From positions 1-38,709 of the IMG/VR virus record IMGVR_UViG_3300025122_000056: a stretch of DNA of 38,709 nucleotides; one strand, given 5' to 3'. Every line of letters starts with the position of its first letter. The stretch's first letter is position 1. Position numbers and translations under genes: made by a program. Below the pieces are notes generated by a model, which saw only the letters and a program-made list of their open reading frames with translations, was not told the origin of the DNA and did not search any database. This document shows positions 1-35,705 of the stretch, one piece after another. This DNA comes from a virus.

Positions 1-40
1 TGCGCTTTTGAAAAAGCGTGTTTTGTCTATTGTCACTTAA

Positions 41-68
41 AATATAGGTACGCAAGTGACACGGTAAA
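41..68 (-). promoter_or_regulatory. Promoter reading out of the window
   Basis: On the minus strand: -35 TTTACC, 16-nt spacer, GTACC, -10 TATATT. It fits the promoter set seen across the window. Its gene lies left of position 1. Confidence 0.7.
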
Positions 69-528: not shown

Positions 529-1332
529 TTAGCACCCAAGACCGCATGCGGTGAAGTGCCGCTGCAATTTGACGGTCAAATCCTTCTCAATCTGCCCGAC
601 ACGCTGCTTTGTGACACCGAAATCGGTGGCCGGCACTTTGTCATTGCCGAGGTAATCCGCAAGGATTCGGCCAATGAAAATAGCACGTTGCCGCTCTTTG
701 AGAGCGTCGGCAAACTCGGAAACTGCCATGAGAATGGCTTGACTTGTGTGTGTGCGCTCCATCGCTTCGTGCTGCGAGATGGAACGGCTCATGAGAGTGT
801 CACCGAAAGTGCCACCGTCCTCGCCAATCGGCGCGGTCAGGCTCGTGGCGCGGGAGCTAATAAGCGGAACGATATCAGCAACATCCGTTTCATCGATTCC
901 CAACTCGCGAGCGATTGTGGCATTATCAACGTCACTTCCAAACTCTCGACGCACGCGGGCGAGTCCTGCGTGCAGCTTCTTTGCGGAGCGAGTGCCAACT
1001 CGGAGAGTGCCACAGTTTGCCTGGACAAACTCCTGAACCTTCGCACGCATCCATTGCGCGGCGTAAGTTGTGAAACTTGCTCCCTTTTCTGCGTCGAACG
1101 TCTCGGTCGCACGGATGATACCCGTGATTGCCTCGGCTGTTAAGTCCTCGATATCAATGCCCTTTCGGACGTGCTTCTTGGCAATCTTAACTGCCATCGG
1201 CAGATTGGACTTGATGAGCGCGTCCAAAGCGCTGTTATCGTTGGAGTTTTGAGCCTCACGCACGAGGTCAATCTGTGCGGAGCGGCTGAGAATGTGAGTC
1301 GTGGCGAGCAAGTTGAAAAGGGCGCTGGTCAT
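529..1332 (-). CDS. RNA polymerase sigma factor, sigma-70 family
   Basis: This 267-residue protein should direct host RNA polymerase to phage promoters. Region 2 is clear at about residues 40-110: NLPMAVKIAKKHVRKGIDIEDL, followed by FDAEKGASFTTYAAQWMRAKVQEF, the -10 recognition and melting helices. A region-3-like helical stretch (ARELGIDETDV) follows, and region 4 lies near the C-terminus (ATDFGVTKQRVGQIEKDL), a helix-turn-helix for the -35. The size and layout resemble RpoH-like or phage group 2/3 factors. The frame is open further upstream, but ATG at 1332 is preferred because GAGGAGAATC precedes it and the longer version would run into the promoter at 1371-1398. It is the obvious candidate to read the recurrent promoter set, though that is inference. 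Confidence 0.93.
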   Translation of the reverse strand: MTSALFNLLATTHILSRSAQIDLVREAQNSNDNSALDALIKSNLPMAVKIAKKHVRKGIDIEDLTAEAITGIIRATETFDAEKGASFTTYAAQWMRAKVQEFVQANCGTLRVGTRSAKKLHAGLARVRREFGSDVDNATIARELGIDETDVADIVPLISSRATSLTAPIGEDGGTFGDTLMSRSISQHEAMERTHTSQAILMAVSEFADALKERQRAIFIGRILADYLGNDKVPATDFGVTKQRVGQIEKDLTVKLQRHFTACGLGC

Positions 1333-1492: not shown

Positions 1493-1621
1493 CTAAATGA
1501 GGTCCATGCTGTCAAGGCGCCAACCGTTAGCAGCAAGATGTTTAATGATTCCAATGAGATAGCCCAGCGAAACGCCGAAAGTTAGTGAAAAGATTGCGAT
1601 TTCTGTGATTTCTGCTGCCAT
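1493..1621 (-). CDS. Small membrane protein, 42 aa
   Basis: It starts at the ATG at 1621 (MAAEITEIAIF), preceded by GGGGAGACGACCC. An earlier in-frame start exists but lacks a ribosome site. A hydrophobic helix spans about residues 8-27 (AIFSLTFGVSLGYLIGIIKH), followed by a polar tail. It is one of several very short membrane proteins in this half of the window. No family is recognised. An AT-rich TATATATA lies about 40 bases upstream, but no convincing -35 of the common class. Confidence 0.6.
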   Translation of the reverse strand: MAAEITEIAIFSLTFGVSLGYLIGIIKHLAANGWRLDSMDLI

Positions 1622-1975
1622 GGGTCGTCTCCCCTCGAAACGCGAAAAGTGTACCCTATATATATGCAAGTCCTGTGCCAACTTCGTGTGCTCAATCATT
1701 TCAAGGGGTTAGCGTCGCCAGCGCGCATTATGCTTCCCAACTTGGCGCGTAGAACCATTCGCACCTGGGCTAACCCCTTGAAATGATTGGGCCAGGTGCG
1801 TATTATGGTTCGCACTGGCCTAACCGGTTGAAGTTGTTATGTAAATCAGAACGGGGGGTGAATCCGCTTCGATATCGCAGGGTTACGATACGCCCACAAG
1901 CCGCGCCTGTGGAACACCCTAAATACAAAGCACTTTTTGTGTTCTCCCTTGTAAGTGGTTGATATGTTTGCGTCG
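1622..1975. other. Gene-free stretch with repeats
   Basis: I see no convincing gene here. It contains a perfect 21-bp inverted repeat (1693-1789) and an imperfect direct repeat around GGTTCGCAC-TGG-CTAACC (about 1756-1784 and 1807-1832). ATTATGCTTC/ATTATGGTTC boxes occur in and beside the loop, and a possible -10 (TATATA) lies near 1657. About 120 bases to its left in the reading direction it feeds the 42-aa membrane gene. Confidence 0.6.
1693..1789. repeat. Perfect 21-bp inverted repeat, 55-bp loop
   Basis: CAATCATTTCAAGGGGTTAGC at 1693-1713 is exactly reverse-complementary to 1769-1789. The loop is GC-rich. The arms resemble border repeat A (AATCATT..AGGG.TTA), so the structure may have formed from two opposed border repeats. 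Confidence 0.9.
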
Positions 1976-2275: not shown

Positions 2276-2317
2276 TTGGTTTCTCCGTTGTGGGGTTTGC
2301 TACCCGGTTACATTCAA

Positions 2318-2345
2318 ACAATAAGAACGGTTCGAGTCGAGTAAA
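2318..2345 (-). promoter_or_regulatory. Promoter of the 99-aa gene
   Basis: -35 TTTACT, 16-nt spacer ending in GTTCT, -10 TATTGT. The -10 and leader lie in a 28-bp segment (2305-2332) that recurs exactly at 4525-4552. Confidence 0.8.
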
Positions 2346-7171: not shown

Positions 7172-7199
7172 ACTATAGGCACAGGCTTAGCAAAGTAAA
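7172..7199 (-). promoter_or_regulatory. Promoter of the array 1 operon
   Basis: -35 TTTACT, 16-nt spacer ending in GTGCC, -10 TATAGT. It is the only promoter of this class before the nine-gene array, which therefore appears to be one transcript down to 5321. Confidence 0.8.
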
Positions 7200-8891: not shown

Positions 8892-10124
8892 TTACTTATC
8901 CACGATAACGATTCGTTCGTTTGTTTGAAAGTAGGGGTTGCTTCCGTTTCGGCTATCAGTCATCCACATTCGCGAACACTTGCTCGGCTTAGGCTTTGGC
9001 GCGCACATATCGGTCAAACAAATATGACCATCGTACTTGCCCTTATTAACGAAATCAGTCGGTGGATTGAAATCAGTGCCGCCCCACATTACACGCTCTT
9101 TCTTGCGCTTCTCGCCTTTCTTCCAAACGTAAACCTTGTCCTCGGCAACCTTTGTGTCAAACGGAATCACAGTGAACGTGGCAATCTCAGATAGCTTGTT
9201 AAGCTCGGAGTAAAATGCTGCCAGCATCTCATCCGAGACGGAACCAGACTGGTCAATGCTGATTGCGATATTGGCAACACGCTCAACCTTGCGACCAGGA
9301 TGAACGTAGGCGTAACGCTTGTTCAAGCGTCGCGGAGTGCTGCGCTTATTGGACCGTTGAGAGCACTTGACGAACCATCGAAGTACCTTGCGCCAGTCGA
9401 CCTTAGTCGATAGCTTATCGATGATTTCCTTGCGGACAGACGAAGACATGGTGCCCCATGAGTTCGACTTCGATGCCTCGTTGACGGCATCCTTCATAGC
9501 CTCCTTCAAGCGTTCTTTCGCGATTTCTTTGGTAGCCTCGTCACAAGACTCGCCACCCCATTCGGCATGGCTGTCAAACTGACCGGCATTATCAGGGTCG
9601 AAACCTTCGCCCTTCTCACCGTCGTCACCTCCACCATTCTGGTCGTCATCAACCTTTTGCTTCAACTGCTCATAATACCATTCGCCAGTCCGATCGGAAG
9701 GCAAATCCTCAAAGGGTCCAGAGCCGGGAAAGCAGCACATTTCCGGCAACTTATCCTTACCAATCAAGCAGTTGATTGAAAGGTCCGTCGCGATATTCCA
9801 CAACTTGAAAAGCTGCATCTTGTCTTTTGGCACATTACCATTGTTGGTAAAAACACCAGCAAGCTCATCGGGCAGACGACCTGTGACATGCTCGAAAATC
9901 AGGTGATAAAACTCATGAATGAGAACACCGGACCTTTGAGCATCAGTTAGACCTTCAAAGAAGTCTGGATTGTACATCATCTCGAAATATCCGGTGTCGG
10001 GATTAACACGCACACCAGCAGTCGGGATGCCCTTGAACTCCTTTTTCTCGATACGACGAGAAAGCGCAGCAAAGAAAGGCTCACGCTGTAGGAGTCGAAA
10101 GATATGGTCGTTTAGAACAAACAT
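8892..10124 (-). CDS. VWA-domain protein with metallopeptidase-like N-terminus
   Basis: The N-terminal half carries a zinc-peptidase-like helix, LIHEFYHLIFEH (HExxH, about residues 89-100). An acidic linker (about 150-200, GGGDDGEKGEGFDPDN) follows. The C-terminal half is a von Willebrand A-like domain with a metal site: NIAISIDQSGSVS (DxSxS), then GGTDFNPP and LTDMC. This arrangement matches the bacterial and phage VWA/DUF2201 group that works with MoxR-type AAA ATPases, one of which is encoded just upstream. The pair probably remodels or activates a protein complex. Start ATG follows GGAGGTCTTC. Confidence 0.88.
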   Translation of the reverse strand: MFVLNDHIFRLLQREPFFAALSRRIEKKEFKGIPTAGVRVNPDTGYFEMMYNPDFFEGLTDAQRSGVLIHEFYHLIFEHVTGRLPDELAGVFTNNGNVPKDKMQLFKLWNIATDLSINCLIGKDKLPEMCCFPGSGPFEDLPSDRTGEWYYEQLKQKVDDDQNGGGDDGEKGEGFDPDNAGQFDSHAEWGGESCDEATKEIAKERLKEAMKDAVNEASKSNSWGTMSSSVRKEIIDKLSTKVDWRKVLRWFVKCSQRSNKRSTPRRLNKRYAYVHPGRKVERVANIAISIDQSGSVSDEMLAAFYSELNKLSEIATFTVIPFDTKVAEDKVYVWKKGEKRKKERVMWGGTDFNPPTDFVNKGKYDGHICLTDMCAPKPKPSKCSRMWMTDSRNGSNPYFQTNERIVIVDK

Positions 10125-10337: not shown

Positions 10338-11405
10338 TTAAGAATCCTTGCCCGTAAGCATTTGAACCATGCGCGCCGAGACCTTCGTGCCATCAGCAGC
10401 AGTGGCCTTATGTAGGCCAATCACGTTGGTATTGCTTCCCTTTCCGAGCACAGTCCACAACTTCATGGCAGCCTCGGAGGGCAGAGTGACAAAGTAGTCA
10501 GCAAGATTCTGAATCTTGTCTTCGGCCAACTCCGTCTCAAATGTGTCACTCGCTTCCATCTTTTCAATCAAGGCACAGTGCTCATTGATTCCAAAATCAT
10601 CTGTCTTGGAGACCTGTCCATCATCCAAGATCATTTCGATAGTCACTTGACGCTCGTAGTTCTGAGCGAAATCGTTAAATGCGACGGCAGCCTCCATCCC
10701 AACGAAAGCAGCGGACAGGTGATAGACACTGGCATCTCCTTTGCGGTCCTCGGTAAGAAAGCCAGCAGCAACCAAGCAATCGCTCAGGCGCTTCCAAGAA
10801 CGACGAGACGGGTATACCTTGTTAGGCTCAAAGTCTTCGCCATGGTCGAGGTGCGAACGGTTCTGATTGATGAAGTCCCAAATGAGACCATCAACATTGT
10901 TCTTGCCCCAGTCAAGCCAATCCTCGACCGTGGGCTCAACGTCAAAGACGGTCCAGCGGTCAAGCTCGGCAGGGTCCATCTCGCCAACCTGATACTGCGA
11001 GCCATGCTCACCACCGTTGACGGCAGCAATGATGACGGTATCTGGGTGGATAGGCCGGCCAAACAACTTGCGGGAATCCGTAAGCTCGAAGAGACCCTGG
11101 CGGACCTCATTGACTGCCCGGTCGACCTCATCAAAGAAGAGGACAACAGGATTGTCACAAGCCTCCTGAAACCAATCAGGCGGGCAGAAAGAAGTGACGT
11201 CGCCGTCAGTCTTGGGAAGACCAATCAGGTCGCCCTCAGTCATCTGAGATGCTCGGCGCTCGACGACGGGCATATCAAGATCTGTTGCAATCTGATATAC
11301 GACCTCGGACTTGCCAACGCCATGGCGACCACGAAGCAGCACAGGCTTGCGAACCGCGATAACGTGCGGGGCAACATTTCGGAATGTCTTAAAATCAACA
11401 GCCAT
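10338..11405 (-). CDS. MoxR-family AAA+ ATPase
   Basis: This 355-residue AAA+ protein has Walker A GRHGVGKSEV (about residues 26-35), Walker B VVLFFDEVDRA (about 88-98) and a sensor-like IIAAVNGG (about 125-132). MoxR ATPases act as chaperones that load or activate VWA proteins, and the VWA partner follows at 8892-10124 under its own promoter. The C-terminal helical part (about 230-355) is less conserved. ATG follows TAGGAGAGTAAA. Homologous pairs are known in large phages, but their role in infection is not established to my knowledge. Confidence 0.9.
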   Translation of the reverse strand: MAVDFKTFRNVAPHVIAVRKPVLLRGRHGVGKSEVVYQIATDLDMPVVERRASQMTEGDLIGLPKTDGDVTSFCPPDWFQEACDNPVVLFFDEVDRAVNEVRQGLFELTDSRKLFGRPIHPDTVIIAAVNGGEHGSQYQVGEMDPAELDRWTVFDVEPTVEDWLDWGKNNVDGLIWDFINQNRSHLDHGEDFEPNKVYPSRRSWKRLSDCLVAAGFLTEDRKGDASVYHLSAAFVGMEAAVAFNDFAQNYERQVTIEMILDDGQVSKTDDFGINEHCALIEKMEASDTFETELAEDKIQNLADYFVTLPSEAAMKLWTVLGKGSNTNVIGLHKATAADGTKVSARMVQMLTGKDS

Positions 11406-11600: not shown

Positions 11601-11686
11601 TGGTAGCATCGGAGGGACTCGAACCCTCAATCCCAAAGGGCGACGGATTTTAAGTCCGTTGCGTATACCAGTTCCGCCACGATGCC
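11601..11686 (-). tRNA. tRNA-Leu (anticodon UAA), CCA encoded
   Basis: Class II cloverleaf with a long variable arm. The acceptor is GGCATCG/CGATGCT with an encoded ACCA end, the anticodon arm is ACGGA-CTTAAAA-TCCGT, and the T arm is GAGGG-TTCGAGT-CCCTC. It reads UUA. It is the first gene behind its own promoter. Confidence 0.95.
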
Positions 11687-14718: not shown

Positions 14719-14795
14719 TGGTTGACCCGGTGGGACTTGAACCCACGACTCCCACCTTATAAGGATGACGCTCTAACCTACTGAGCTACGGGTCA
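14719..14795 (-). tRNA. tRNA-Ile (anticodon UAU), CCA encoded
   Basis: Acceptor TGACCCG/CGGGTCA plus ACCA, D arm GCTC..GAGC, anticodon arm TCATC-CTTATAA-GGTGG, T arm GTGGG-TTCAAGT-CCCAC. The UAU anticodon reads AUA, usually a rare codon. It is transcribed from 14815-14842. Confidence 0.93.
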
Positions 14796-18984: not shown

Positions 18985-19216
18985 CTTTCTGTTTTCGCGT
19001 CAGTTGCTTGAACCTATATTCGGCTTTTTGAGCAGAAGATCTATCTTTGAAGGTTGTCCAATAAACCACCTCAACAGGTCTCCTCGTCTTCGTATATTTT
19101 GCGCCCTTTGGCGAAGTATTGTGCTCATTAAGACGTCGCTTAACGTCGGTTGTCACACCAGTATAGTAAGAACCATCGGAGCAGAGTAAAACGTATAAAA
19201 ACCAGTGTTTAATCAA
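18947..19216 (-). CDS. GIY-YIG nuclease-like protein (UPF0213 type)
   Basis: The domain fills the protein: WFLYVLLCSDGSYYTGVTTD carries the Y..Y.G motif, RRLNEHN the conserved arginine, AKYTKTRRPVEVVYW the family signature, and QKAEYRFKQL the catalytic glutamate helix. UPF0213 proteins are single-domain GIY-YIG nucleases of uncertain substrate. The best start is a TTG at 19216 overlapping the upstream stop; the frame stays open to a GTG at 19312, giving 121 residues. Neither has a good ribosome site, so the N-terminus is uncertain. Confidence 0.78.
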   Translation of the reverse strand: MIKHWFLYVLLCSDGSYYTGVTTDVKRRLNEHNTSPKGAKYTKTRRPVEVVYWTTFKDRSSAQKAEYRFKQLTRKQKDEYIILRNPEDG

Positions 19217-21620: not shown

Positions 21621-22607
21621 TTATATGCTATTTTTACAATCAGAAAAGAAAATTTCTATATTACTAGCTAGTTGCGAAGTTATATAACTACACATTTCTT
21701 TTTCGTTTTTTAAATCAATAAGCTGTGAATTGTGATATATTTTCCATTGTCCCAATTCTCGCAATACATCCATTTTGTTGATAACAAGTTTATTAACAGA
21801 ATTAAGGGCAATATTTTTTTGTAACTCGTCTAAGTTAAGCCAATTACATTGGCGCGGCCGGCCGGTGGTCGCACCGTATTCGTCGCCTAAATCACGCAGA
21901 GCTTGAAACACCGGATCGGATGGCTCGAAAGATTTGGCTCCAACATAGGTCTCATAAATCTTTGCGACACCCCATACATCACGAAGCCATCGTGGACTAA
22001 CGGCATTCAAAAATACGCCGCCTAAACCACAGTGACTAGAAGTGACATATGGATAGTCGCCCCAATCAATATCCAAACCGAATCCTTGTGCTCCTTCGCA
22101 TAATACTTTAATTGTTTTATCATTGTGAAATTCCTCGTATAAGTCTATGATATAAGATCGTAATGAAGCTACCTCGTCGGCCCGCATTCCTTTGCGGGCA
22201 TACTTATCGCGATAAGCTGGTCCGTTACCACGTCGCGTGGTACCAATCTTATTTTCTGCTGCTTCTTCAAGAAGATGCCCTTCGGTAATTACATGAGCAT
22301 TCTTCGCAATAAAAAGCGTACCATCTAATTTAATTCCAGCATCTTGTAGCTCTCTTACTTCTTCAAAAAAATGTTTAGGGCTGATTACACATCCAGGTCC
22401 AATAATTGATTTAACCCCATAAAATACGCCGGCAGGAATATGATGTGTTACAAATTTCCTACCTTCGTGATAAATTGTGTGACCAGCGTTACAGCCTCCA
22501 TTAAATCTCAAAACATGAGTATAATTTTTGTTCTTGGATAAGTAGTGTGTAACTTTTCCTTTGGCCTCGTCGCCATGTTGAATTCCTAATACTACGTCAG
22601 CTAACAT
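21621..22607 (-). CDS. purA: Adenylosuccinate synthetase
   Basis: PurA joins IMP and aspartate using GTP, the first step from IMP to AMP. The 328-residue protein has all core motifs: QHGDEAKGK (residues about 10-18), GGCNAGHTI, TTRRGNGPAYRDKYA, CEGAQGFGLDIDWGDYPYVT, TTGRPRQCNWLN and NKMDVL. It is about 100 residues shorter than bacterial PurA, like archaeal and phage forms. The aspartate of the GDE motif, replaced in the PurZ enzymes of phages with 2-aminoadenine DNA, is retained here. PurA activity is therefore favoured. ATG follows AAAGGAAAAAA. An IMP dehydrogenase-like gene at 36.8 kb serves the other IMP branch. Confidence 0.9.
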   Translation of the reverse strand: MLADVVLGIQHGDEAKGKVTHYLSKNKNYTHVLRFNGGCNAGHTIYHEGRKFVTHHIPAGVFYGVKSIIGPGCVISPKHFFEEVRELQDAGIKLDGTLFIAKNAHVITEGHLLEEAAENKIGTTRRGNGPAYRDKYARKGMRADEVASLRSYIIDLYEEFHNDKTIKVLCEGAQGFGLDIDWGDYPYVTSSHCGLGGVFLNAVSPRWLRDVWGVAKIYETYVGAKSFEPSDPVFQALRDLGDEYGATTGRPRQCNWLNLDELQKNIALNSVNKLVINKMDVLRELGQWKIYHNSQLIDLKNEKEMCSYITSQLASNIEIFFSDCKNSI

Positions 22608-22627
22608 TTTTTTCCTTTGTTATTTAG

Positions 22628-22700
22628 TACCCCCTGTAGGGATCGAACCTACGACCTGCGGATTAAGAGTCCGATGCTCTACCAACTGAGCTAAGAGGGC
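22628..22700 (-). tRNA. tRNA-Lys (anticodon CUU), CCA not encoded
   Basis: Acceptor GCCCTCT/AGGGGGT, D arm GCTC..GAGC, anticodon arm TCGGA-CTCTTAA-TCCGC (outermost pair T:C mismatched), T arm GTAGG-TTCGATC-CCTAC, discriminator A followed by CTA rather than CCA. It lies between two protein genes of one transcript. Confidence 0.88.
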
Positions 22701-22725
22701 TTATCTTGGTGGTTGCTTTTATCCG

Positions 22726-23391
22726 CTAATCAAGAATAGTTTTCGCTATATTTTTGACTGCCATCCTTTCGTTGCGAGACAAATCCCTGTAAGTCTCTAA
22801 ACCCTCAGTAAAAGTAAATGGCCGGCTATTAACTCTTGTCATAAACTCTGCTTCTTCGCCCGGCTTGATATTGCCAACCTGTACAGTTTGTCCTAAACCT
22901 GGAAATTCACTGTAATTTGTGCCATACAAGTGTGCGCCTTCACCACCAGCGGGGATAATTAAAACAGAATCTTGACAAAATTTCTTGCCGAGCATTATAA
23001 TATTATCAATAAAATCAGAAGCTTCTGGTAAATTAACAACTATATAACTTTCCTCTCCAACTTCCACGGCTTGTGGGGTATCAAAATCTTCAACGTAGTT
23101 GCCGCCAACTCTTGTAACTCCATAATTTAATGATAGAAGTGTGGCCTTAAGATCTCGATTTCTTTGCTTGTTGACGCGAAGTTGGACGCCTGTTCTGCCA
23201 CCTTTTCCCTTTACTTCGGGTGGTAAATCCTCTCCGCCTCTCAAGGCATCGTCTACGCATTTAGACATATCGTTGGGATCGTTACGAAAAGCTGTCAATA
23301 TTGCCGTCTCTGTCGAGTAAATAAACTTATGTACTCTTGAAAGCGAAGATTCATTGAGAAATGATTTCCATTTACCGAGCAAATCTTTCAT
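22726..23391 (-). CDS. Hypothetical protein with KWKSFLNE N-terminus, 221 aa
   Basis: The N-terminus MKDLLGKWKSFLNESS is an amphipathic helix ending in glutamate, similar to that of the 184-aa protein at 23653 (MKLLFKNWKKFLLQED). This recalls the T4 capsid targeting peptide (MKTYQEFIAE) removed by the prohead protease. The rest is alpha/beta (GVQLRVNKQRNRDLKATLLS, YIVVNLPEASDFIDNIIMLG, DSVLIIPAGGEGAHLYGTN) and compatible with an enzyme domain I cannot name. It is preceded by ATGA overlap and followed by tRNA-Lys. Confidence 0.75.
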   Translation of the reverse strand: MKDLLGKWKSFLNESSLSRVHKFIYSTETAILTAFRNDPNDMSKCVDDALRGGEDLPPEVKGKGGRTGVQLRVNKQRNRDLKATLLSLNYGVTRVGGNYVEDFDTPQAVEVGEESYIVVNLPEASDFIDNIIMLGKKFCQDSVLIIPAGGEGAHLYGTNYSEFPGLGQTVQVGNIKPGEEAEFMTRVNSRPFTFTEGLETYRDLSRNERMAVKNIAKTILD

Positions 23392-23663
23392 AGATTTCTC
23401 TCTGCATATTCAGTACACTTCTTTAGAGAATCAACTTCCCGACTTGGTTCAACAACCACCAGTTCATCAATTCGATATTCATGATAATAGTGATCGCCTC
23501 CGCGCATTTCGTTTATAAAATCCATCGCACTTTCATACTTCTCATCGTTAAACCATTTTACTTTTGCAAACGACCAATTGTTCTTTCTTGCTTCCAGATT
23601 TGTTACCACACCATAACGTCGTATGCCTTGATAATTCTGAAATACAATATCGCTAACTTTCAC
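23388..23663 (-). CDS. Array-family relative outside the arrays, 91 aa
   Basis: GTG start, MKVSDIVFQNYQGIRRYGVV, then NNWSFAKVKWFNDEKYESAM and IDELVVVEPSREVD. Pattern and size match the array proteins with a C-terminal extension. Its start overlaps the end of the 184-aa gene, which accordingly ends GGLSES, the same tail seen in the arrays. This shows the overlapping start cassette attached to an unrelated upstream gene. Confidence 0.72.
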   Translation of the reverse strand: MKVSDIVFQNYQGIRRYGVVTNLEARKNNWSFAKVKWFNDEKYESAMDFINEMRGGDHYYHEYRIDELVVVEPSREVDSLKKCTEYAERNL

Positions 23664-24207
23664 TTAAACCTCCTTCAAGTTTATGTTTTGTGACTTCAAT
23701 TGGCTCAAACCACACTACAATATCCATGCCCCCTGTCTTGTAACGCGCACCTTTATAGTTTGATTCTTCGGGACTCAACAAGCTTTCAGGCTCGGAACCA
23801 TATTTGGATTGTCGTGGTTTATTGGCCAAACTTCTCAATATTCTATCGTAATCCGGTGTCACTCGAAATTGCGACATTGATTTATTTTTCAGGTCCAGCG
23901 GATCCGTCGTTAAATCGTATATCTGTTCCGCAGGTACAGTTGCTGAGTACAAAGCAGAGTCTTGTTTGACCTGTTCTTCTGCTTGTTCTTTTTTCATATA
24001 GAAAAATACTCTTGGCATGTCTGATACTTTATAATCATTGCGGGAATAATGTTGTCTTTTTGTCAAAAAATATTGAGGATCCAGCATTAAGCTGTCTCCC
24101 TGTTCTTTTGAAAAGTGATATAGCTTGATATTTTCGTTAGAAAATACATAATCATTGATATCTTCCTGTAAAAGGAATTTTTTCCAATTTTTAAATAGGA
24201 GTTTCAC
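23653..24207 (-). CDS. Hypothetical protein, possible ADP-ribosyltransferase-like
   Basis: The 184 residues begin with the amphipathic helix MKLLFKNWKKFLLQED, then IKLYHFSKEQGDSLMLDPQY, YSRNDYKVSDMPRVFFYMKK and YSATVPAEQIYDLTTDPL. The LYHxS motif and the following order are reminiscent of ADP-ribosyltransferase-type folds found in phage and toxin proteins. This is a weak similarity by eye. If the N-terminus is a packaging signal, it could be an injected effector. GTG start without a clear ribosome site, following tRNA-Arg on the transcript. Confidence 0.62.
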   Translation of the reverse strand: MKLLFKNWKKFLLQEDINDYVFSNENIKLYHFSKEQGDSLMLDPQYFLTKRQHYSRNDYKVSDMPRVFFYMKKEQAEEQVKQDSALYSATVPAEQIYDLTTDPLDLKNKSMSQFRVTPDYDRILRSLANKPRQSKYGSEPESLLSPEESNYKGARYKTGGMDIVVWFEPIEVTKHKLEGGLSES

Positions 24208-24271
24208 AATTAATAATTAGTCTAATCCTTCTTGATGTTCTTAACCAATCGAGTTATAAACATATAATATA

Positions 24272-24300
24272 ATTATAATAACAAAATACTAATTTGTAAA
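24272..24300 (-). promoter_or_regulatory. Candidate promoter after tRNA-Arg
   Basis: -35 TTTACA, 17-nt spacer, -10 TATAAT, in an AT-rich gap before the 184-aa gene. It differs from the common class in spacer length and lacks GTTCY. Confidence 0.55.
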
Positions 24301-24315
24301 GAATTTAATTCCTTG

Positions 24316-24392
24316 TGGTACGTTCGACAGGATTCGAACCTGTGACCCTCGGCTTAGAAGGCCGATGCTCTATCCATCTGAGCTACGAACGC
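24316..24392 (-). tRNA. tRNA-Arg (anticodon UCU), CCA encoded
   Basis: Acceptor GCGTTCG/CGAACGT plus ACCA, D arm GCTC..GAGC, anticodon arm TCGGC-CTTCTAA-GCCGA, T arm ACAGG-TTCGAAT-CCTGT. It reads AGA. Confidence 0.95.
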
Positions 24393-24398
24393 ACAAAG

Positions 24399-24412
24399 CC
24401 CCTTGCGGGGCA
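24399..24412 (-). other. Hairpin before tRNA-Arg
   Basis: GCCCC-GCAA-GGGGC on the minus strand, six bases before the tRNA 5' end and followed only by TTTG. It may be a processing structure or a weak terminator for the 31-aa gene. Confidence 0.5.
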
Positions 24413-24416
24413 GCTC

Positions 24417-24512
24417 TCAAATAATAACAATAAGTGCGATATAAGTAATGGCGCTAGATATCATGAGATTCTTGAAAAGACCATCACCGCTATAGCGTGA
24501 AAAACTATTCAT
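24417..24512 (-). CDS. Small membrane protein, 31 aa
   Basis: ATG follows AAAGGAGGAAAATAAT, a near-perfect ribosome site that argues for real translation despite the length. The product has a polar first third (MNSFSRYSGDGLFKNL) and a C-terminal membrane helix (SAITYIALIVII). It is sandwiched between tRNA-Thr and tRNA-Arg. Confidence 0.65.
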   Translation of the reverse strand: MNSFSRYSGDGLFKNLMISSAITYIALIVII

Positions 24513-24578
24513 ATTATTTTCCTCCTTTTTGAACTGTATATATAGTAACTTCCTTGTGAAAGGAAAGTATTTTTTTGA

Positions 24579-24650
24579 AGCCTTCTCGCGGATTTGAACC
24601 GCGAACGTCCACTTTACAAGAGTGGTGCTCTACCGTTGAGCTAAGAAGGC
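24579..24650 (-). tRNA. tRNA-Thr (anticodon UGU), CCA not encoded
   Basis: Acceptor GCCTTCT/AGAAGGC, D arm GCTC..GAGC, anticodon arm CCACT-CTTGTAA-AGTGG, T arm CGCGG-TTCAAAT-CCGCG. The discriminator is T and no CCA follows. The first ten bases also encode the C-terminus and stop codon of the methyltransferase. Confidence 0.93.
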
Positions 24651-25495
24651 ATACAATAATCGCGTATCCTTCTTTCAGATATATCAATATATTTTGTTTC
24701 TAAATCAATTCCTATAAACTTTCTATTCTCCAAAAGAGATGCTATTCCGGTACTTCCCGATCCACAAAAAGGATCGATAACAGTACCTCCCTCGGGTACA
24801 AAAACCTTGACCAAGTAGGACATTAAAGAAATAGGCTTTGGAGTTGGGTGATCGTTGTATTCTCCCCTTTCTTTGCGTGTTACGCGAGGAGCATAAAAAT
24901 ACTTTTGATGAGCCGGATTATCAAAATATCCAATTATATTAGAAGGATAGCGTCCAGCTGGGTTGGCATCTTCTTTGCCAAATTCTTTTTGGGTTCCAGT
25001 TGTTTTCCCATCTTTTCCAAAGGTAAGCCTCTGTAAACCGCCCTTTACCCAGCCGGTTGGAGGTTTCCCATCCCATGGAATTCTAGTATTTTGTGTATCA
25101 ATTAGCCCCACATTCCATTCCTCATGATTCTTTTTCAAAGAACCTTTGAAAGGTTTTTGAGCCACAACTATAGGCTCGTGGGCCGGCTTAAGCTTATTTT
25201 TCTTGGGCATTTTAGTTGTCACCATCCATATAATTTGATCTTTTATCAAAAATCCACCGTCCTCGACGGCGCAGGCCATCCGATGATATAGTTGCGGACT
25301 ACAAAAACTAAGACAAAAGGCACCTGGCTTTAGAATTCTCTTAACTTCGACCCATATTTCAGACGTCGGTACCGAATGGTCCCACGCTTCCATTCCCATG
25401 CCATACGGAGGATCAGTAACGCAGCCATCAATACTATTATCGGGCAACTCTTTCATCGCCCCCAAGCAGTTTCCTACTATTAACCTATGAGACAT
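24641..25495 (-). CDS. DNA amino-methyltransferase (beta class)
   Basis: This 284-residue enzyme methylates adenine N6 or cytosine N4 in DNA. Catalytic motif DPPYGMGME lies early (about residues 30-38) and the AdoMet-binding motif VIDPFCGSGSTG late (about 245-256), the beta-class order. A target-recognition region lies between them, including KPAHEPIVVAQKPFKG. The start ATG 25495 (MSHRLIVGN) overlaps the endonuclease gene by 11 bases. The longer frame to 25621 is rejected. The stop codon TAG lies inside tRNA-Thr. Together with the upstream endonuclease it forms a probable type II restriction-modification system. Confidence 0.92.
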   Translation of the reverse strand: MSHRLIVGNCLGAMKELPDNSIDGCVTDPPYGMGMEAWDHSVPTSEIWVEVKRILKPGAFCLSFCSPQLYHRMACAVEDGGFLIKDQIIWMVTTKMPKKNKLKPAHEPIVVAQKPFKGSLKKNHEEWNVGLIDTQNTRIPWDGKPPTGWVKGGLQRLTFGKDGKTTGTQKEFGKEDANPAGRYPSNIIGYFDNPAHQKYFYAPRVTRKERGEYNDHPTPKPISLMSYLVKVFVPEGGTVIDPFCGSGSTGIASLLENRKFIGIDLETKYIDISERRIRDYCMPS

Positions 25496-26138
25496 AATCA
25501 AATACCTTTTGTTCGCATGCGGTGCGCATAGAATGTAAGAAATAGTCGACATAATCTTTGCCGCCCATTTGATTGTACATCGCCCGCGTATAAAATTGAA
25601 ATCCACGCTTAAACTCATCACTCTCTCTTAATTTTTGATTAAGTTCTTCGTCTGCTTTTCTTGCTTTTTCAAGATGTTCTCTTAACATCTTTCCTTGCTC
25701 ACAAGAAAGGATATCCTGCCCTCGATAGACAGTAGTTTCGTCGGTTTTGTCAGAGCAAAAAATATAAATATATTTCGGATTAGGGAGACCGCTATTATAA
25801 ATTGGGTAAACTCCTTGGGCGCTCTTACACTCTAGGTAATAAAGCTTGCCCTCAGACTTAACTATGAAGTCTGGACTTTTGTGAGTTCCGCATGGTTGCG
25901 GAATAAAAGAATTATCAGGTAGTTCCGAATGGTCCCCTCCATCTAACCACAAGTCTCTTAGACCAGTTTTGGGCGCATGTGTGGGCATCGATGTTTCGAC
26001 CAAATGATGTTTAACGAGCAGATCTTGAACAGCATCCTCGTGTTTAGCTTCATTGTGGACATTTCCACTTGACGCAGCATAATTTTGATAATAGGGCATT
26101 CGTTGAATATCCTTCATAATCGCGAGCATGTTGCTCAT
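25485..26138 (-). CDS. PD-(D/E)XK endonuclease, likely restriction enzyme
   Basis: The 217-residue protein contains the nuclease core THKSPDFIVKSEGKLYYLECK (PD...ExK, about residues 86-106), followed by a helical C-terminal half (LREHLEKARKADEELNQKLR). Type II restriction enzymes typically have this layout, and the gene overlaps a DNA methyltransferase gene on the same strand. I therefore read it as the restriction partner. A solitary nuclease that degrades host DNA, with the methyltransferase protecting phage DNA, is an equally reasonable use. ATG follows TAAGGAGACCAATT. Confidence 0.8.
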   Translation of the reverse strand: MSNMLAIMKDIQRMPYYQNYAASSGNVHNEAKHEDAVQDLLVKHHLVETSMPTHAPKTGLRDLWLDGGDHSELPDNSFIPQPCGTHKSPDFIVKSEGKLYYLECKSAQGVYPIYNSGLPNPKYIYIFCSDKTDETTVYRGQDILSCEQGKMLREHLEKARKADEELNQKLRESDEFKRGFQFYTRAMYNQMGGKDYVDYFLHSMRTACEQKVFDYVS

Positions 26139-26155
26139 AATTGGTCTCCTTAAGG

Positions 26156-26704
26156 CTACTTGTAGTTTTTTACAATCCAGTCGTACATCGCAATACCAGA
26201 ACTGGTACCAACATTTAAACTTCGTACAGAGCCGAACTGCGCTATGTTAACACAATAGTCACATTCTTTTAAGAGTAAAGGAGAAATTCCTTCTCCCTCC
26301 TCGCCGAAAATCATTAACGCGTTGGGCGGCCACTCAAATGTTTCCATCGGAACACAACAATCTAAGTTGTTATCAAGCGCAACAAAAACATACTTCTCTT
26401 TAAGTTTAAGTAACTCATCGAAATCATTAAGATAATTTAAATCAACATAGTGATGAGTACCAACAGCGCCTCGTCGATCCCAACGCTTGCGACCAATGTA
26501 AAACACCTGAGATGCGTTGAAAGCATTGGCGTTTCTAATCATTGTGCTGATATTAAAGTCACCTTTCCAATGTTCCATTAAGACTGCGAATGGATGAGCC
26601 TTTGAACATAAATCTTCTTTGATATCTTCGATGCTCCATGACTTATATTCATCAGTCACATTATATTTCCAAGCACTCAGTCGCTCTTTATCATTCATAT
26701 TCAT
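26156..26704 (-). CDS. SPOUT-class RNA 2'-O-methyltransferase (SpoU/TrmH)
   Basis: All three SpoU motifs are present: NISTMIRNANAFNASQVFYI (motif 1, about residues 51-70), ALMIFGEEGEGIS (motif 2, about 129) and IAQFGSVRSLNVGTSSGIAM (motif 3, about 153), forming the knotted AdoMet site. Members methylate ribose in tRNA or rRNA. No extra RNA-binding domain is visible, and 182 residues is typical of minimal forms. It may modify phage or host tRNA and lies near three tRNA genes. The start overlaps the preceding gene by a few bases; a second ATG two codons on is possible. Confidence 0.88.
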   Translation of the reverse strand: MNMNDKERLSAWKYNVTDEYKSWSIEDIKEDLCSKAHPFAVLMEHWKGDFNISTMIRNANAFNASQVFYIGRKRWDRRGAVGTHHYVDLNYLNDFDELLKLKEKYVFVALDNNLDCCVPMETFEWPPNALMIFGEEGEGISPLLLKECDYCVNIAQFGSVRSLNVGTSSGIAMYDWIVKNYK

Positions 26705-26990
26705 CTTGAAATGTATTCCTATGAAACTCTAACATAGTCTCAGCCGCGAGCAGCTTAGTTGCATGTCCATTCAAATTAGCTGAAGGATTGTTTCCAATTT
26801 TAACGATTGGAATATATGTAACAATATATCTTTCGCCCGGTGCCATTTTCAATGACTTATCTGCACGGTAGGGGCCCCAATCAATATTTCTGTTCTCTTT
26901 CAAAAGAGTAAAAATTTCTCCAATAAATATTCCATCATGCCAAACATTCAGGCGACCAGTGTGAGACTGCTTCTTAAAGACAAAATTCAT
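26691..26990 (-). CDS. Hypothetical protein, 99 aa
   Basis: ATG follows ATGAGGAAAA. The N-terminal half is beta-rich (MNFVFKKQSHTGRLNVWHDG, IFIGEIFTLLKE), and the C-terminal half is helical (ATKLLAAETMLEFHRNTFQD). Its end overlaps the methylase start. No family is recognised. Confidence 0.65.
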   Translation of the reverse strand: MNFVFKKQSHTGRLNVWHDGIFIGEIFTLLKENRNIDWGPYRADKSLKMAPGERYIVTYIPIVKIGNNPSANLNGHATKLLAAETMLEFHRNTFQDEYE

Positions 26991-27011
26991 TTTTCCTCAT
27001 TTAAAATGATC

Positions 27012-27033
27012 AAAAAAAAGCGCCCGAAGGCGC
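27012..27033 (-). terminator. Rho-independent terminator
   Basis: GCGCC-TTCG-GGCGC stem with a UUCG tetraloop, then TTTTTTTT on the minus strand, 20 bases after the acidic lipoprotein gene. Confidence 0.9.
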
Positions 27034-27052
27034 ACAAAACTTAAAAAAAGTT

Positions 27053-27283
27053 TTAGTTTTCTACGTCTTCTTCAACAGCAAGAACAACATCGGCGGTGTC
27101 AAGGGACACTTCTAGATCAGAATCAACATCGACACTTTCAAATGTGTCCTCAGTCACTTCTTCAACTAGAATATCGCCAACGACAACATCGTCGGTCACT
27201 TGTTCCAACACCGTTGAGTCATCCGTAGTACAGCCTTGGATAGCTGTAATCATTAACAAAATCATTGCAAATGTGATTTTCAT
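27053..27283 (-). CDS. Small acidic lipoprotein, 76 aa
   Basis: MKITFAMILLMITAIQGC is a lipoprotein signal with lipobox IQGC. The mature chain is made almost only of D, E, V, T and S (DILVEEVTEDTFESVDVDSD). ATG at 27283 follows AAAGGAGTATATT. It has its own promoter and a terminator, so it is a single-gene unit. An envelope-anchored acidic protein could alter the cell surface or exclude other phages; this is a guess. Confidence 0.75.
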   Translation of the reverse strand: MKITFAMILLMITAIQGCTTDDSTVLEQVTDDVVVGDILVEEVTEDTFESVDVDSDLEVSLDTADVVLAVEEDVEN

Positions 27284-27312
27284 AATATACTCCTTTGAAA
27301 TCATGAAGTATA

Positions 27313-27340
27313 AATATACGCACCGATAAAAAATAGTAAA
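27313..27340 (-). promoter_or_regulatory. Promoter of the acidic lipoprotein gene
   Basis: -35 TTTACT, 16-nt spacer, -10 TATATT. The spacer ends GTGCG instead of GTTCY. Confidence 0.75.
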
Positions 27341-27345
27341 TAATA

Positions 27346-27588
27346 TTACTTAAAATCTGGAGTTGGCACACAAGTTTCTGGATCGATTGTGACTTCGTTG
27401 TTTTTGTGAGCCTCGATAAATTCTTGAGCTGCTTTCTTATTCTTGAAATTTGTAAGATAAATTAGCTTCTCATCTTCTTTAAGAAGAACTTCATAGCACC
27501 CATGCCGTGCGTGATTAATATCATAAACGCTGGGCCTCTTGTTTTCTTTGAGTTTCTTGAAGTTTCTTGGTCTTTTGCGAAACTTCAT
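27346..27588 (-). CDS. Hypothetical basic protein, 80 aa
   Basis: ATG at 27588 (MKFRKRPRNFKKLKENKRPS) follows GAAAGGACACAAG. The lysine/arginine-rich start is followed by a beta-alpha unit (GCYEVLLKEDEKLIYLTNFK, NKKAAQEFIEAHKN). The pattern YLTNFKNKKAAQEFIEAH resembles small phage proteins of unknown function. Confidence 0.65.
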   Translation of the reverse strand: MKFRKRPRNFKKLKENKRPSVYDINHARHGCYEVLLKEDEKLIYLTNFKNKKAAQEFIEAHKNNEVTIDPETCVPTPDFK

Positions 27589-27599
27589 CTTGTGTCCTT

Positions 27600-27746
27600 T
27601 CATATATCAATTATAATAACACCACGCTCATCGTCAAGATCTTCTTCTTCCTGTTGCTGTACATTTTCTTTAAGCCATTGAACATATCTTTCCTGCTCTT
27701 CCTGTGGTGAAGGTACCCGAACGTACAATCTTTCATATTCGCTCAT
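27600..27746 (-). CDS. Small acidic protein, 48 aa
   Basis: MSEYERLYVRVPSPQEEQER, then YVQWLKENVQQQEEEDLDDE and GVIIIDI. ATG follows GAGGAGTTGAGTA. It overlaps the next downstream start by a few bases and the upstream coiled-coil gene by 14. No family. Confidence 0.6.
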   Translation of the reverse strand: MSEYERLYVRVPSPQEEQERYVQWLKENVQQQEEEDLDDERGVIIIDI

Positions 27747-27888
27747 TACTCAACTCCTCAATTATTCCTTTTAACTGTTGATTTTCGCTACCTAATTCAT
27801 GAATCAACTCATTCATTTCGTGAACAGCTTGAACTAAAAGATCGTATCTGTTTTTCAGATCTTTTAATTCCTGCTCATGTGTTTTCAC
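27733..27888 (-). CDS. Small coiled-coil protein, 51 aa
   Basis: GTG start overlapping the previous stop as GTGA. The sequence MKTHEQELKDLKNRYDLLVQ, AVHEMNELIHELGSENQQLK, GIIEEL has clear heptads of leucine, isoleucine and valine, predicting one long coiled coil. Confidence 0.65.
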   Translation of the reverse strand: MKTHEQELKDLKNRYDLLVQAVHEMNELIHELGSENQQLKGIIEELSNERI

Positions 27889-28070
27889 CTTCCCTGGCCT
27901 CGGTAGGGCTTTTTGCGACGTCGAGCGTTGCTCGGCGGGGTGCCGTCGCGATGGCCATTGTGAAATGTCTCACCTCCCGAATGAGGGGTTCTAGAATAAG
28001 TCCCATTTCCCTGTGAGGTTTTTTTCGGAATGCTACCGATGCTATACACAATTCCTCTAATCTTTGCCAT
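27885..28070 (-). CDS. Small basic, disordered protein, 61 aa
   Basis: ATG follows TAAGGAGAATAAA. A short hydrophobic start (MAKIRGIVYSIGSIPKK) is followed by a glycine-, serine- and arginine-rich segment (NGTYSRTPHSGGETFHNGHR, SNARRRKKPYRGQGR) that looks unstructured and may bind nucleic acid. It is the first gene of a four-gene chain. Confidence 0.62.
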   Translation of the reverse strand: MAKIRGIVYSIGSIPKKTSQGNGTYSRTPHSGGETFHNGHRDGTPPSNARRRKKPYRGQGR

Positions 28071-28082
28071 TTTATTCTCCTT

Positions 28083-28110
28083 ATAGTAATTAGGGCAAGA
28101 GACGTTTCAA
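28083..28110 (-). promoter_or_regulatory. Promoter after the Hsp20 terminator
   Basis: -35 TTGAAA, 16-nt spacer, -10 TACTAT. The -35 sits inside the perfect inverted repeat GACGTTTGAAACGTC (28101-28115), which could serve as an operator. Confidence 0.6.
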
Positions 28111-28120
28111 ACGTCTTTTT
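28101..28120 (+). other. Inverted repeat GACGTTT-C-AAACGTC with T-run
   Basis: Read on the plus strand this is a 7-bp stem followed by TTTTT, like a terminator for antisense transcription. On the minus strand it overlaps the -35 of the next promoter. Either role is possible. Confidence 0.5.
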
Positions 28121-28150
28121 AAAAAAAAAGGATACCCAACGGGTATCCTT
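28119..28150 (-). terminator. Terminator of the Hsp20 gene
   Basis: AAGGATACCC-GTT-GGGTATCCTT stem (10 bp) followed by a T-run on the minus strand, 24 bases after the Hsp20 stop codon. Confidence 0.92.
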
Positions 28151-28173
28151 TAGAAACTTAAGATCTTAAAAGA

Positions 28174-28608
28174 TTACTTAATATTAATACACAACGGCTT
28201 AACTTCAGGTCTCGTTGGTACAACGAGCTTAAGCAGGCCGTTCTCAAATTCTGCTGTTGTAGCATTAAGATCTAAATTGTTATCATAATTAACATACGTC
28301 TTAGAAAAGTTCCGGCGTGCTACGCGCCTGGAGCGTTCTCGTGCGTTGATATCCTCAGTGTTCGCACTAACTGTGATACTGTTCTTTTCTGGTTTGATTT
28401 CAATATTCAAATCTTCCTTTGAAAATCCAGCCAAAGCAAATTCCATTACAGTATCTCCATTGTCTTCCCGATAAATATCGGCTACAGGATATCCCTGTGT
28501 TGTTCTCTGCATCAACTGTGGAAAATCCAGCATTGAATCAAAGATGTCCTCAAAAACATTCCGACCCAGAAGGCTCGGACGATAAGTTGCAAGTGTTGTA
28601 CTAGTCAT
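28174..28608 (-). CDS. Small heat-shock protein, Hsp20/IbpA family
   Basis: This 144-residue protein holds unfolded proteins in a refoldable state. The alpha-crystallin domain covers about residues 42-135: PVADIYREDNGDTVMEFALA, GFSKEDLNIEIKP, NFSKTYVNYDNNLDLNATTA, then the signature FENGLLKLVVPTRPE. The C-terminal IxI-type anchor is CINIK. Start ATG 28608 follows AAAGGAGAAAATATT; the frame is open to 28680, but that part contains the promoter. It is a one-gene unit with its own promoter and terminator. Hsp20 is known from cyanophages and other large phages. Confidence 0.93.
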   Translation of the reverse strand: MTSTTLATYRPSLLGRNVFEDIFDSMLDFPQLMQRTTQGYPVADIYREDNGDTVMEFALAGFSKEDLNIEIKPEKNSITVSANTEDINARERSRRVARRNFSKTYVNYDNNLDLNATTAEFENGLLKLVVPTRPEVKPLCINIK

Positions 28609-28676
28609 AATATTTTCTCCTTTTAAAGCAAGTATTTGAGCGAGAATCCCTTGCAGGCGACACTCGCTATATCTAA

Positions 28677-28704
28677 ACAATAAGCACGCTCAAGAATCAG
28701 TCAA
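28677..28704 (-). promoter_or_regulatory. Promoter of the Hsp20 gene
   Basis: -35 TTGACT, 16-nt spacer ending in GTGCT, -10 TATTGT. It belongs to the common class, not an obvious heat-shock type. Confidence 0.78.
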
Positions 28705-28721
28705 GAAGAAAATATATTTTT

Positions 28722-29078
28722 TTAATGAAGGGACAAAGAACAATTTAATTTTAGAAGTTCTTTTTTTGTGAAGGCTCTTGCCAATATCGCCTGCTCTGTT
28801 AAAATAATATCTGTCTCATTTAATGCGATAACACTACCTTCGTTATCATCTTTCATAAGATTGGAGTTCAAGTTTGATTTTAAAACTCTCCATATATGAT
28901 AGTTTGATGAGAATGAATCACACAATAGTGTCATCAGCTTTAAATCTAGTGGGTCTTCCGCGGCTTTATCACTAATTAAATCCGCTAAAATATCAATTTG
29001 TTCATCGGCTATTTTTATCATCAAAATGACAATTGATTCATCTAGCGTATACAGATTTGGATTTTCTTTGTCAGGCAT
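28722..29078 (-). CDS. Hypothetical helical protein, 118 aa
   Basis: ATG follows AAGGAGTGAGAT. The product is helical and acidic (ESIVILMIKIADEQIDILAD, LMTLLCDSFSSNYHIWRVLK, EQAILARAFTKKELLKLN). No family. It is the last gene of the long operon that includes groEL. Confidence 0.65.
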   Translation of the reverse strand: MPDKENPNLYTLDESIVILMIKIADEQIDILADLISDKAAEDPLDLKLMTLLCDSFSSNYHIWRVLKSNLNSNLMKDDNEGSVIALNETDIILTEQAILARAFTKKELLKLNCSLSLH

Positions 29079-29081
29079 ATC

Positions 29082-29333
29082 TCACTCCTTCATATCCAGA
29101 CGCTCAATCAAATCGGTATAGCCTCCCAGGAGTTTATAGGTTTTTTCATCAGTCACTTCAAATACCATAGGTACAGTCTGCCATCCATAAATATCTTTTA
29201 GTTCTTCCCAAACCAGTGGGCGCCAATCCAGTAAAAATGTCTTGAAATCAATATTTTCATCTCGTAATTTTTTTACTGCTTTGGTACAAAAACAACATTC
29301 TTTCTTTATGTAAAGGATAAATTTTTTATTCAT
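29082..29333 (-). CDS. Glutaredoxin-like protein
   Basis: The 83 residues show the thioredoxin fold of glutaredoxins. The first strand KKFILYIKKECCFCTKAVKK carries the active site CCFC (C-x-x-C, about residues 13-16), QTVPMVFEV supplies the cis-proline (about 54), and GGYTDL matches the GG-x-D region. Phage glutaredoxins usually reduce ribonucleotide reductase; no reductase gene is in this window. ATG lies after the gene at 29335 with only a one-base gap. Confidence 0.88.
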   Translation of the reverse strand: MNKKFILYIKKECCFCTKAVKKLRDENIDFKTFLLDWRPLVWEELKDIYGWQTVPMVFEVTDEKTYKLLGGYTDLIERLDMKE

Positions 29334-29334
29334 T

Positions 29335-29625
29335 TTAATCTCGTAATTTTTCCAGTATTATCTCTAAGTTACCTATAATATTCATAGTATGTGAGCCATT
29401 GCCTACCCCCGACAAATGAATTTTTACAAATTCAGCTTTCTCGTTTAGGTTATCCGGCCACTTCTTAAGTTTTATAAGTTTTTGTTTTAAATCATGATTT
29501 GGCTTGATAGCCACAATAAAGTCGCGATTAATCAAAACTTCTTTTATAGAATAATTTCTATTTTCATTAGATAATCTTTGTCTATCTTCTTGTATTTCAA
29601 CCAACGATATTAATTTAAACACCAT
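29335..29625 (-). CDS. Hypothetical protein, 96 aa
   Basis: MVFKLISLVEIQEDRQRLSN, then NYSIKEVLINRDFIVAIKPN and KIHLSGVGNGSHTMNIIGNL. The alternation of strands and the phrase YSxKEVxINxxxIVxIxP resemble a small beta-barrel phage family seen in other large phages. Function is unknown. The start overlaps the preceding gene by 11 bases. Confidence 0.68.
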   Translation of the reverse strand: MVFKLISLVEIQEDRQRLSNENRNYSIKEVLINRDFIVAIKPNHDLKQKLIKLKKWPDNLNEKAEFVKIHLSGVGNGSHTMNIIGNLEIILEKLRD

Positions 29626-29815
29626 ACACCTTTCTTTTTTCTACGTACCATACATCGCCTTGAAAATAAACACCAAGGTCATTTTCCTGTTCTTCTTTCA
29701 CTAATAAATATTTTGGCTTCTCTAAGCATACAACTTTATTGGGACGTCCATCGGTGTATTTCATCAAATTTGTATCTGAAGGAATATACACTAGTTTTCC
29801 CACCGGGTTATTCAT
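29615..29815 (-). CDS. Small beta-rich protein, 66 aa
   Basis: MNNPVGKLVYIPSDTNLMKY, then NKVVCLEKPKYLLVKEEQEN and LGVYFQGDVWYVEKRKVYGV. The strand order (VGKLVYIPS..., VVCLEKPKYLLV, VWYVEK) is like the array proteins, but the start lacks MKVGDLV, so it is at most a distant relative. It overlaps the upstream stop. Confidence 0.65.
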   Translation of the reverse strand: MNNPVGKLVYIPSDTNLMKYTDGRPNKVVCLEKPKYLLVKEEQENDLGVYFQGDVWYVEKRKVYGV

Positions 29816-32073: not shown

Positions 32074-32081
32074 TTTTTAAA

Positions 32082-33692: not shown

Positions 33693-33700
33693 AACTATAA

Positions 33701-35256: not shown

Positions 35257-35265
35257 TTTAAATTC

Positions 35266-35634: not shown

Positions 35635-35646
35635 TATAACCTCATT

Positions 35647-35681: not shown

Positions 35682-35705
35682 AAAACCTCAAGTTTTAAAT
35701 ATTAA

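Follow-up and report, generated by a model that had tools for sequence, protein, structure and literature searches.

We identified a class of promoters, with the motif CTTTACT-N11-GTTCY-TATNNTT-N4-TGT, of which about twenty copies precede small genes in the window, that is, the whole stretch of DNA analysed, a virus record of 38.7 kb from a group of marine bacterial viruses. Judged from sequence, the sites of this array very probably make up the regulon of an RpoH-derived sigma factor that the phage itself encodes and whose synthesis would be started by sigma54, with a gp55-like sigma factor serving the structural genes. We assign this reading a probability of roughly 0.8.

A promoter array with a fixed spacer

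A search of the whole window for TTTACT-N11-GTTCY-TATNNTT with at most 3 mismatches returned 31 matches, compared with a mean of 1.17 by chance (100 dinucleotide shuffles of the window, maximum 5 matches). This rules out that the sites are chance AT-rich matches and bears out the existence of the class, which an earlier note on this DNA had proposed. Nearly all matches (30/31) lie on the minus strand, which is the coding strand. A PWM built from the best sites gave 27 minus-strand sites of at least 16 bits, the training sites scoring high by construction, and no site of at least 16 bits on the plus strand of the window. The individual sites are as follows.

40-68, minus strand: array promoter, 2 mismatches, 31.3 bits
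1370-1398, minus strand: array-type promoter before the sigma gene, TTGTCC-N11-GTTCT-TATTAT, 3 mismatches
2317-2345, minus strand: array promoter, 0 mismatches, 40.7 bits
2890-2918, minus strand: array promoter, 0 mismatches, 39.0 bits
3407-3435, minus strand: array promoter, 2 mismatches, 33.9 bits
4035-4063, minus strand: array promoter, 2 mismatches, 33.8 bits
4537-4565, minus strand: array promoter, 0 mismatches, 38.8 bits
4915-4943, minus strand: array promoter, 1 mismatch, 35.8 bits
5288-5316, minus strand: array promoter, 0 mismatches, 40.0 bits
7171-7199, minus strand: array promoter, the site under which the earlier note was filed, 1 mismatch, 39.4 bits
7871-7899, minus strand: array promoter, 0 mismatches, 28.7 bits
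8683-8711, minus strand: array promoter, 3 mismatches, 27.6 bits
10147-10175, minus strand: array promoter before the DUF2201/VWA gene (8892-10124), 1 mismatch, 39.1 bits
11446-11474, minus strand: array promoter before the MoxR-type AAA ATPase gene (10338-11405), 0 mismatches, 39.2 bits
11697-11725, minus strand: array promoter before tRNA-Leu(taa) (11601-11686), 0 mismatches, 37.7 bits
12587-12615, minus strand: array promoter, 2 mismatches, 28.7 bits
13212-13240, minus strand: array promoter, 0 mismatches, 22.2 bits
14038-14066, minus strand: array promoter, 3 mismatches, 26.4 bits
14814-14842, minus strand: array promoter before tRNA-Ile(tat) (14719-14795), 1 mismatch, 35.1 bits
17245-17273, minus strand: array promoter, 2 mismatches, 27.2 bits
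19162-19190, minus strand: array promoter, 2 mismatches, 31.2 bits; similar site in G002, 34.6 bits
20931-20959, minus strand: weak array promoter, 4 mismatches, 20.7 bits
27312-27340, minus strand: weak array promoter, 2 mismatches, 17.2 bits
28676-28704, minus strand: array promoter before an Hsp20-like gene, 2 mismatches, 29.5 bits

Of the 24 sites listed previously, 22 lie within 3 mismatches of the motif. The site at 20932, with 4 mismatches, is weak but real, while the one at 28083 was dropped from the class because it carries 8 mismatches and is absent from the PWM list. The site at 19162-19190 had been missing from that list and may overlap an ORF. Weak matches inside ORFs at 6234, 12100, 15658 and 17604 are probably due to chance or repeat similarity. 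Our recount of sites with GTTCC or GTTCT directly before the -10 element gave the same figure as before, 16 of 24.

The claimed constancy of the 16-nt spacer was examined by pairing -35-like half-sites with TATNNT half-sites on the minus strand at spacers of 10-24 nt, which yielded 27 pairs at 16 nt versus 2-9 at each other spacer; the same pairing on the plus strand gave no peak at 16. The spacer is thus not an artefact of selection. Positions that had not been selected for are also conserved, with a C before the -35 element in 17/21 sites, and T, G and T at 6-8 nt past the -10 hexamer in 17, 16 and 17 of the 21. The array sites mostly lack both TGn and a TATAAT core. Where start codons with a ribosome-binding site were found, these mostly lie 13-45 nt downstream of the array site, and two of the sites precede tRNA genes (tRNA-Leu and tRNA-Ile). 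Genes for adenylosuccinate synthetase, GroEL, ClpP and IMP dehydrogenase occupy the region 21621-37859 of the window, where some sigma70-like promoters occur (e.g. at 32058).

An RpoH-like sigma factor within the array

The candidate reader of this class is encoded at one end of the window.

529-1332, minus strand: sigma70-family factor of 267 aa, with RpoH as the nearest family (Pfam Sigma70_r2, 2.5e-15)

Region 2 of the protein matches Sigma70_r2 over the cut-off, and no separate Pfam match to region 4 was obtained at 0.001; all 11 orthologues nevertheless align with region 4.2 of E. coli RpoH across the helix-turn-helix. The NCBIfam model rpoH_proteo matches with an E-value of 1.1e-32 and 113.8 bits, and since this score lies below the equivalog cut-off of 323.1, we refer to the protein as RpoH-like rather than RpoH. 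An AlphaFold model of low confidence (mean pLDDT 69.9) resembles the PDB structures of RpoS and RpoH, and a fold search with this model matched sigma factors with a best E-value of 7.6e-10. Orthologues are present in ten other records (G001, G002, G011, G017, G018, G027, G028, G030, G031 and G032). Scanning bacterial genomes with the sigma alignment yielded no confirmed relative, and near and distant DNA searches of phage collections returned no relative.

The earlier note had placed the sigma gene behind a site of its own class. The site is indeed there, at 1370-1398, with the ATG of the sigma gene 39 nt downstream. The further proposal that this sigma is the dedicated reader of the class gains indirect support from three sides: their co-occurrence, the joint variation of the -35 element and the recognition helix, and the sigma70 promoters of two relatives that lack the array.

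The array occurs together with the sigma gene

Relatives were collected around the DUF2201 gene, which lies about 8 kb from the sigma gene in the window and served as an anchor, giving 60 loci (including the window) at least 38% identical to it. The tree was built without loci below 38% identity to the anchor; near-identical records were kept and counted apart (e.g. L207/L208 and L224/L226), and four duplicate loci were removed. The sigma gene could be scored in 44 of the 60 loci. The other 16, in which under 8.5 kb of sequence follows the anchor gene, were left out, and 5 of them hold at least 3 full sites.

All 11 scorable loci with the sigma gene carry the array, compared with 0 of the 33 without it, and there are no mixed cases; because the presence of sigma changes once on the tree of DUF2201 and MoxR (a single origin), this two-by-two table stands for one evolutionary event. 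Ten sigma loci (window excluded) contain 86 full coding-strand sites in a total of 196 kb, and the 33 loci without sigma contain 0 in 613 kb. We also searched 28 whole records. The 5 with sigma hold 12-17 matches each, and 21 of the 23 without it hold 0-3 stray matches. The remaining two, G029 and G042, have 10 and 4 matches and are fragments ending soon after the anchor gene. They belong to a set of seven array-bearing contigs without sigma (G003, G006, G008, G010, G016, G029 and G042), in each of which a contig end falls in the interval separating the anchor region from the position where the sigma gene would be expected.

The array is also confined in space. G008 (157.7 kb), a near-identical longer contig with 98.7% identity to the window over 20 kb, carries the class only in its first 16 kb, and its remaining 140 kb, which include replication, structural and sugar genes, contain no site of at least 14 bits. 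The same array occupies about 7-31 kb on the coding strand of G002 (122.7 kb), ending around the sigma gene. Several loci below the 38% limit, in distant DUF2201-bearing phages (L237, L241, L243-245, L247, L248, L250-254, L257 and L262), carry a different sigma, about 27-31% identical, without the array.

Two relatives without the array have predicted promoters of the ordinary textbook sigma70 kind where the sigma clade has the array. G012 (165.9 kb), which lacks both sigma and array and has DUF2201, MoxR and a gp55-like protein, shows CTTGACA-N14-TGC-TATA around the anchor (TTGACA-17-TATAAT with TGn), and G019 shows TTGACT-16-TATAAT in the corresponding region. Among the other loci without sigma, many hold TTGACA-16/17-TATAAT sites, up to 14, and some hold none or few. 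G019 may count against the link between sigma and array: it falls inside the sigma clade (medium support) and has no array, and its sigma gene could not be scored, as only 4.1 kb of contig follow the anchor gene.

These relatives bear on an alternative that we consider unlikely, namely that the array consists of ordinary early promoters read by host sigma70, as in T4, and that the phage sigma serves another class. TTTACT-16-TATNNT would be within reach of sigma70, and the T4 early promoters, in the part of the literature covering their consensus, have a GTTTAC -35 element, with relatives that vary between T and G at -33 much as the array does (PMC1524935). However, none of the 33 scorable relatives without the phage sigma has the array, and G012 and G019 use textbook sigma70 promoters in the corresponding region. 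The shortage of TGn and of a TATAAT core among the array sites also speaks against host sigma70, as does the way in which the -35 element tracks the helix of the phage sigma, described below.

The -35 element follows the region 4.2 helix

Sites were chosen in 15 early regions by the -10 block GT[T/G]C[C/T]TATNNT[A/T] alone, and the -35 element was read at a fixed offset. Clade A has TTTAC[T/C] in 44 of 71 distinct sites, with the helices TKQRVGQ, TKQRVCQ or SKQRVGQ, and clade D has the same -35 element in 19 of 28, with TKQR[VC]GQ. Clade B, with SKQRIAQ, has TTG[A/T]C in 28/32 distinct sites. Clade C, which comprises one sigma and 18 sites, has TTGAAA in 11 of those 18, and its helix, SAERVRQLE, known for one genome, is identical to that of E. 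coli RpoH. The -35 element of E. coli RpoH is given as CTTGAA in the promoter section of PMC10216364. While the -35 element varies, GT[T/G]CY-TAT remains constant across clades, and a spacer of 16 dominates in all of them (57/72, 20/32, 12/18 and 22/28). Within the sigma clade, the -35 element thus changes together with the predicted recognition helix.

At the level of residues, the fifth -35 base is C where a basic residue occupies the place of sigma70 R584 and A where alanine does, which would agree with the behaviour of R584 in sigma70. The code is incomplete, because clade B has G as the third -35 base though the aligned residue is Q as in clade A, and no single residue explains this position. 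Promoters of the full RpoH type (-35 CTTGAA, with CCCCAT) were not encountered: TTGAAA occurs in clade C only, and GTTCY-TAT takes the place of CCCCAT.

The same data weigh on the idea that the phages differ in their hosts, the array being read by the host's RpoH or by a sigma70 particular to a lineage, and the phage sigma being linked to it by descent only. The single origin on the tree would fit, the TTGAAA class resembles host RpoH promoters, and alphaproteobacterial sigma70 promoters likewise have a C before the -35 and -10 elements. This idea would nevertheless need host shifts that mimic the helix changes, and a host factor fails to explain why arrays end near the sigma gene; we regard it as very improbable. 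We retain the phage sigma as the probable reader of the array.

A sigma54-type promoter precedes the sigma gene

Upstream of the sigma gene, the window contains the following features.

1493-1621, minus strand: leader ORF of 42 aa (translation) between the sigma54-type promoter and sigma
1665-1680, minus strand: sigma54-type -24/-12 promoter TGGCACAGGACTTGCA, 0 mismatches
1745-1764, unstranded: enhancer-like palindrome of the GTGCG-N10-CGCAC type, 1 mismatch
1796-1815, unstranded: enhancer-like palindrome GTGCG-N10-CGCAC, exact

A sigma54-type promoter is found upstream of sigma in all 11 genomes, on the coding strand and 57-348 nt before the start codon. The motif TGGCACRN4YTGCW, with GG at -24 and GC at -12, is exact in 10 of the 11 and has one mismatch in the other, at a chance rate of 6 per Mb per strand. 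Promoters of this kind normally serve the host in its responses to stress or nutrients. In G002, G028 and G031, 57-65 nt separate it from the start codon and contain no array-type site, and in 7 genomes an array-type site is located between it and the sigma gene. We ruled out, for the seven genomes (of 11) with such a site, that the sigma gene's own array-type promoter is nearer to the sigma70 consensus than its siblings: 15/26, 13/22, 21/25, 15/15, 18/18, 11/13 and 16/18 of the sites are at least as host-like. The leader peptide at 1493-1621 is membrane-like, with a similar peptide in G032/L176 (L176 9743-10001).

Paired palindromes with at most 1 mismatch lie 56-177 nt further upstream in 7/11 genomes (G000, G001, G011, G017, G018, G030 and G031). 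The pair was not found in G002, G027 and G032, and the region is cut by the contig end in G028. Paired sites of such a kind are usual for sigma54 activators. As a DctD site the palindrome was rejected: its half-sites agree, but the gap is N10 rather than the N6 given for DctD in the relevant part of PMC11077940. Since no AAA+ activator gene scored over the cut-off in ten phage records, the activator would come from the host.

A relative without sigma has two overlapping sigma54-type sites, inverted relative to each other, at L188 9764 (G012 156094), some 4.2 kb past DUF2201. What we least expected was the sigma54-type start, and a limited literature search found no published phage sigma gene under sigma54 control.

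Structural genes carry a different element

Upstream sequences in the structural region carry a -10-only element, ACTATTTAT, on the coding strand, e.g. at 23470, 51821, 59423 and 63823 of G008, 26-53 nt before start codons. The 47 upstream regions examined in G008 contain 8 copies of TACTATTTAT with at most 1 mismatch versus 0.77 expected, and those of G003, G006, G002 and G010 contain 4, 2, 3 and 1 versus 0.39, 0.22, 0.57 and 0.17. The T4-type late promoter TATAAATA showed no coding-strand excess, and an expectation-maximisation run centred on the late element was set aside after drifting into AT-rich sequence.

A gp55-like protein of about 220 aa occurs in 12/12 long records, whether or not they carry the RpoH-like sigma (e.g. 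G008 121208-120540, minus strand, and L147:321-983); the gene lies outside the window. All three proteins tested match phrog_234, the late sigma family (1.7e-05, 7.1e-06 and 0.001), and the fold search was weak, with a best E-value of 0.11. We had first favoured the RpoH-like sigma as the late sigma reading ACTATTTAT. This is now judged unlikely, because the gp55-like protein occurs in all twelve long records and the ACTATTTAT signal is also found in G012, a relative without the RpoH-like sigma. The gp55-like sigma is probably the reader of ACTATTTAT.

Proposed course of infection

From the observed motif, its co-occurrence with sigma, the joint change of -35 element and helix, the sigma54-type promoter in 11/11 genomes and the late element, we infer the protein-DNA contacts, the order in time and the part played by the host as follows. 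Host sigma54, together with a host enhancer-binding protein at the paired palindromes, would make the first phage sigma from the promoter at 1665-1680. The phage sigma would then join the host core RNA polymerase, with region 4.2 binding CTTTACT and regions 2.4/3.0 binding GTTCY-TATNNT at the fixed 16-nt spacing, and transcripts of the small-gene region would begin shortly after the -10 element. The array-type site at 1370-1398 would boost the gene of sigma itself. Structural genes would use the -10-only ACTATTTAT, probably via the separate gp55-like sigma.

More broadly, we lean slightly towards a picture in which lytic phages leave the takeover through the small genes to their own RpoH-derived sigma and place this sigma under a host sigma54 promoter with enhancers, the gp55-like sigma then running the structural genes. 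If so, a nutrient- or stress-sensing activator of the host would gate infection, and it would be up to an enhancer-binding protein of the host whether infection goes ahead. The phages are candidates for a lytic programme that host sigma54 sets going. They also provide a natural set of pairs of sigma helix and -35 element for studying how sigma factors read DNA, in a family whose members have either host-type sigma70 promoters or a phage regulon in one and the same region.

Comparison with known systems

The middle sigma gp28 of SPO1 likewise belongs to a sigma-factor cascade. E. coli RpoH (sigma32) is the nearest profile, and clade C has the identical helix, paired with TTGAAA; the difference is that most clades here have changed helices and TTTACT or TTG[A/T]C. 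For the dnaK P1 promoter, as displayed in the promoter section of PMC10216364, we counted 16 nt between TTGAAG and CATTTA. The T4 early promoters, in the parts of PMC1524935 and PMC2988021 that describe them, resemble the array in their TTTAC-like -35 element, their extra conserved bases and their position before early and tRNA genes, but are read by host sigma70 and have TGn and a consensus -10 element. Group 2 jumbo phages likewise have two kinds of sigma, of which one is minimal and the other resembles cellular RpoD closely; the consulted portions of PMC7824862 describe no promoter class or sigma54 control for them.

Also among the closest systems are gp47 of phage 7-11 and gp36 of phiEco32, which, according to the portions of PMC8948821 dealing with these phages, are also phage sigmas that redirect the host core polymerase to phage promoters, and whose promoters have been mapped. 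The promoter of phage 7-11 is likewise bipartite, its two parts 16 nt apart, and the sigma gene is proposed to come under positive feedback (PMC8948821, same portions). Their promoters differ from the array in sequence (GTAAtg-16-aCTA and tAATGTAtA), and their sigmas run middle or late genes, with early genes on sigma70 (PMC8948821, same portions). In the phages described here, unlike in 7-11 and phiEco32, the array covers the small-gene region beside the sigma gene, and the structural genes carry another element.
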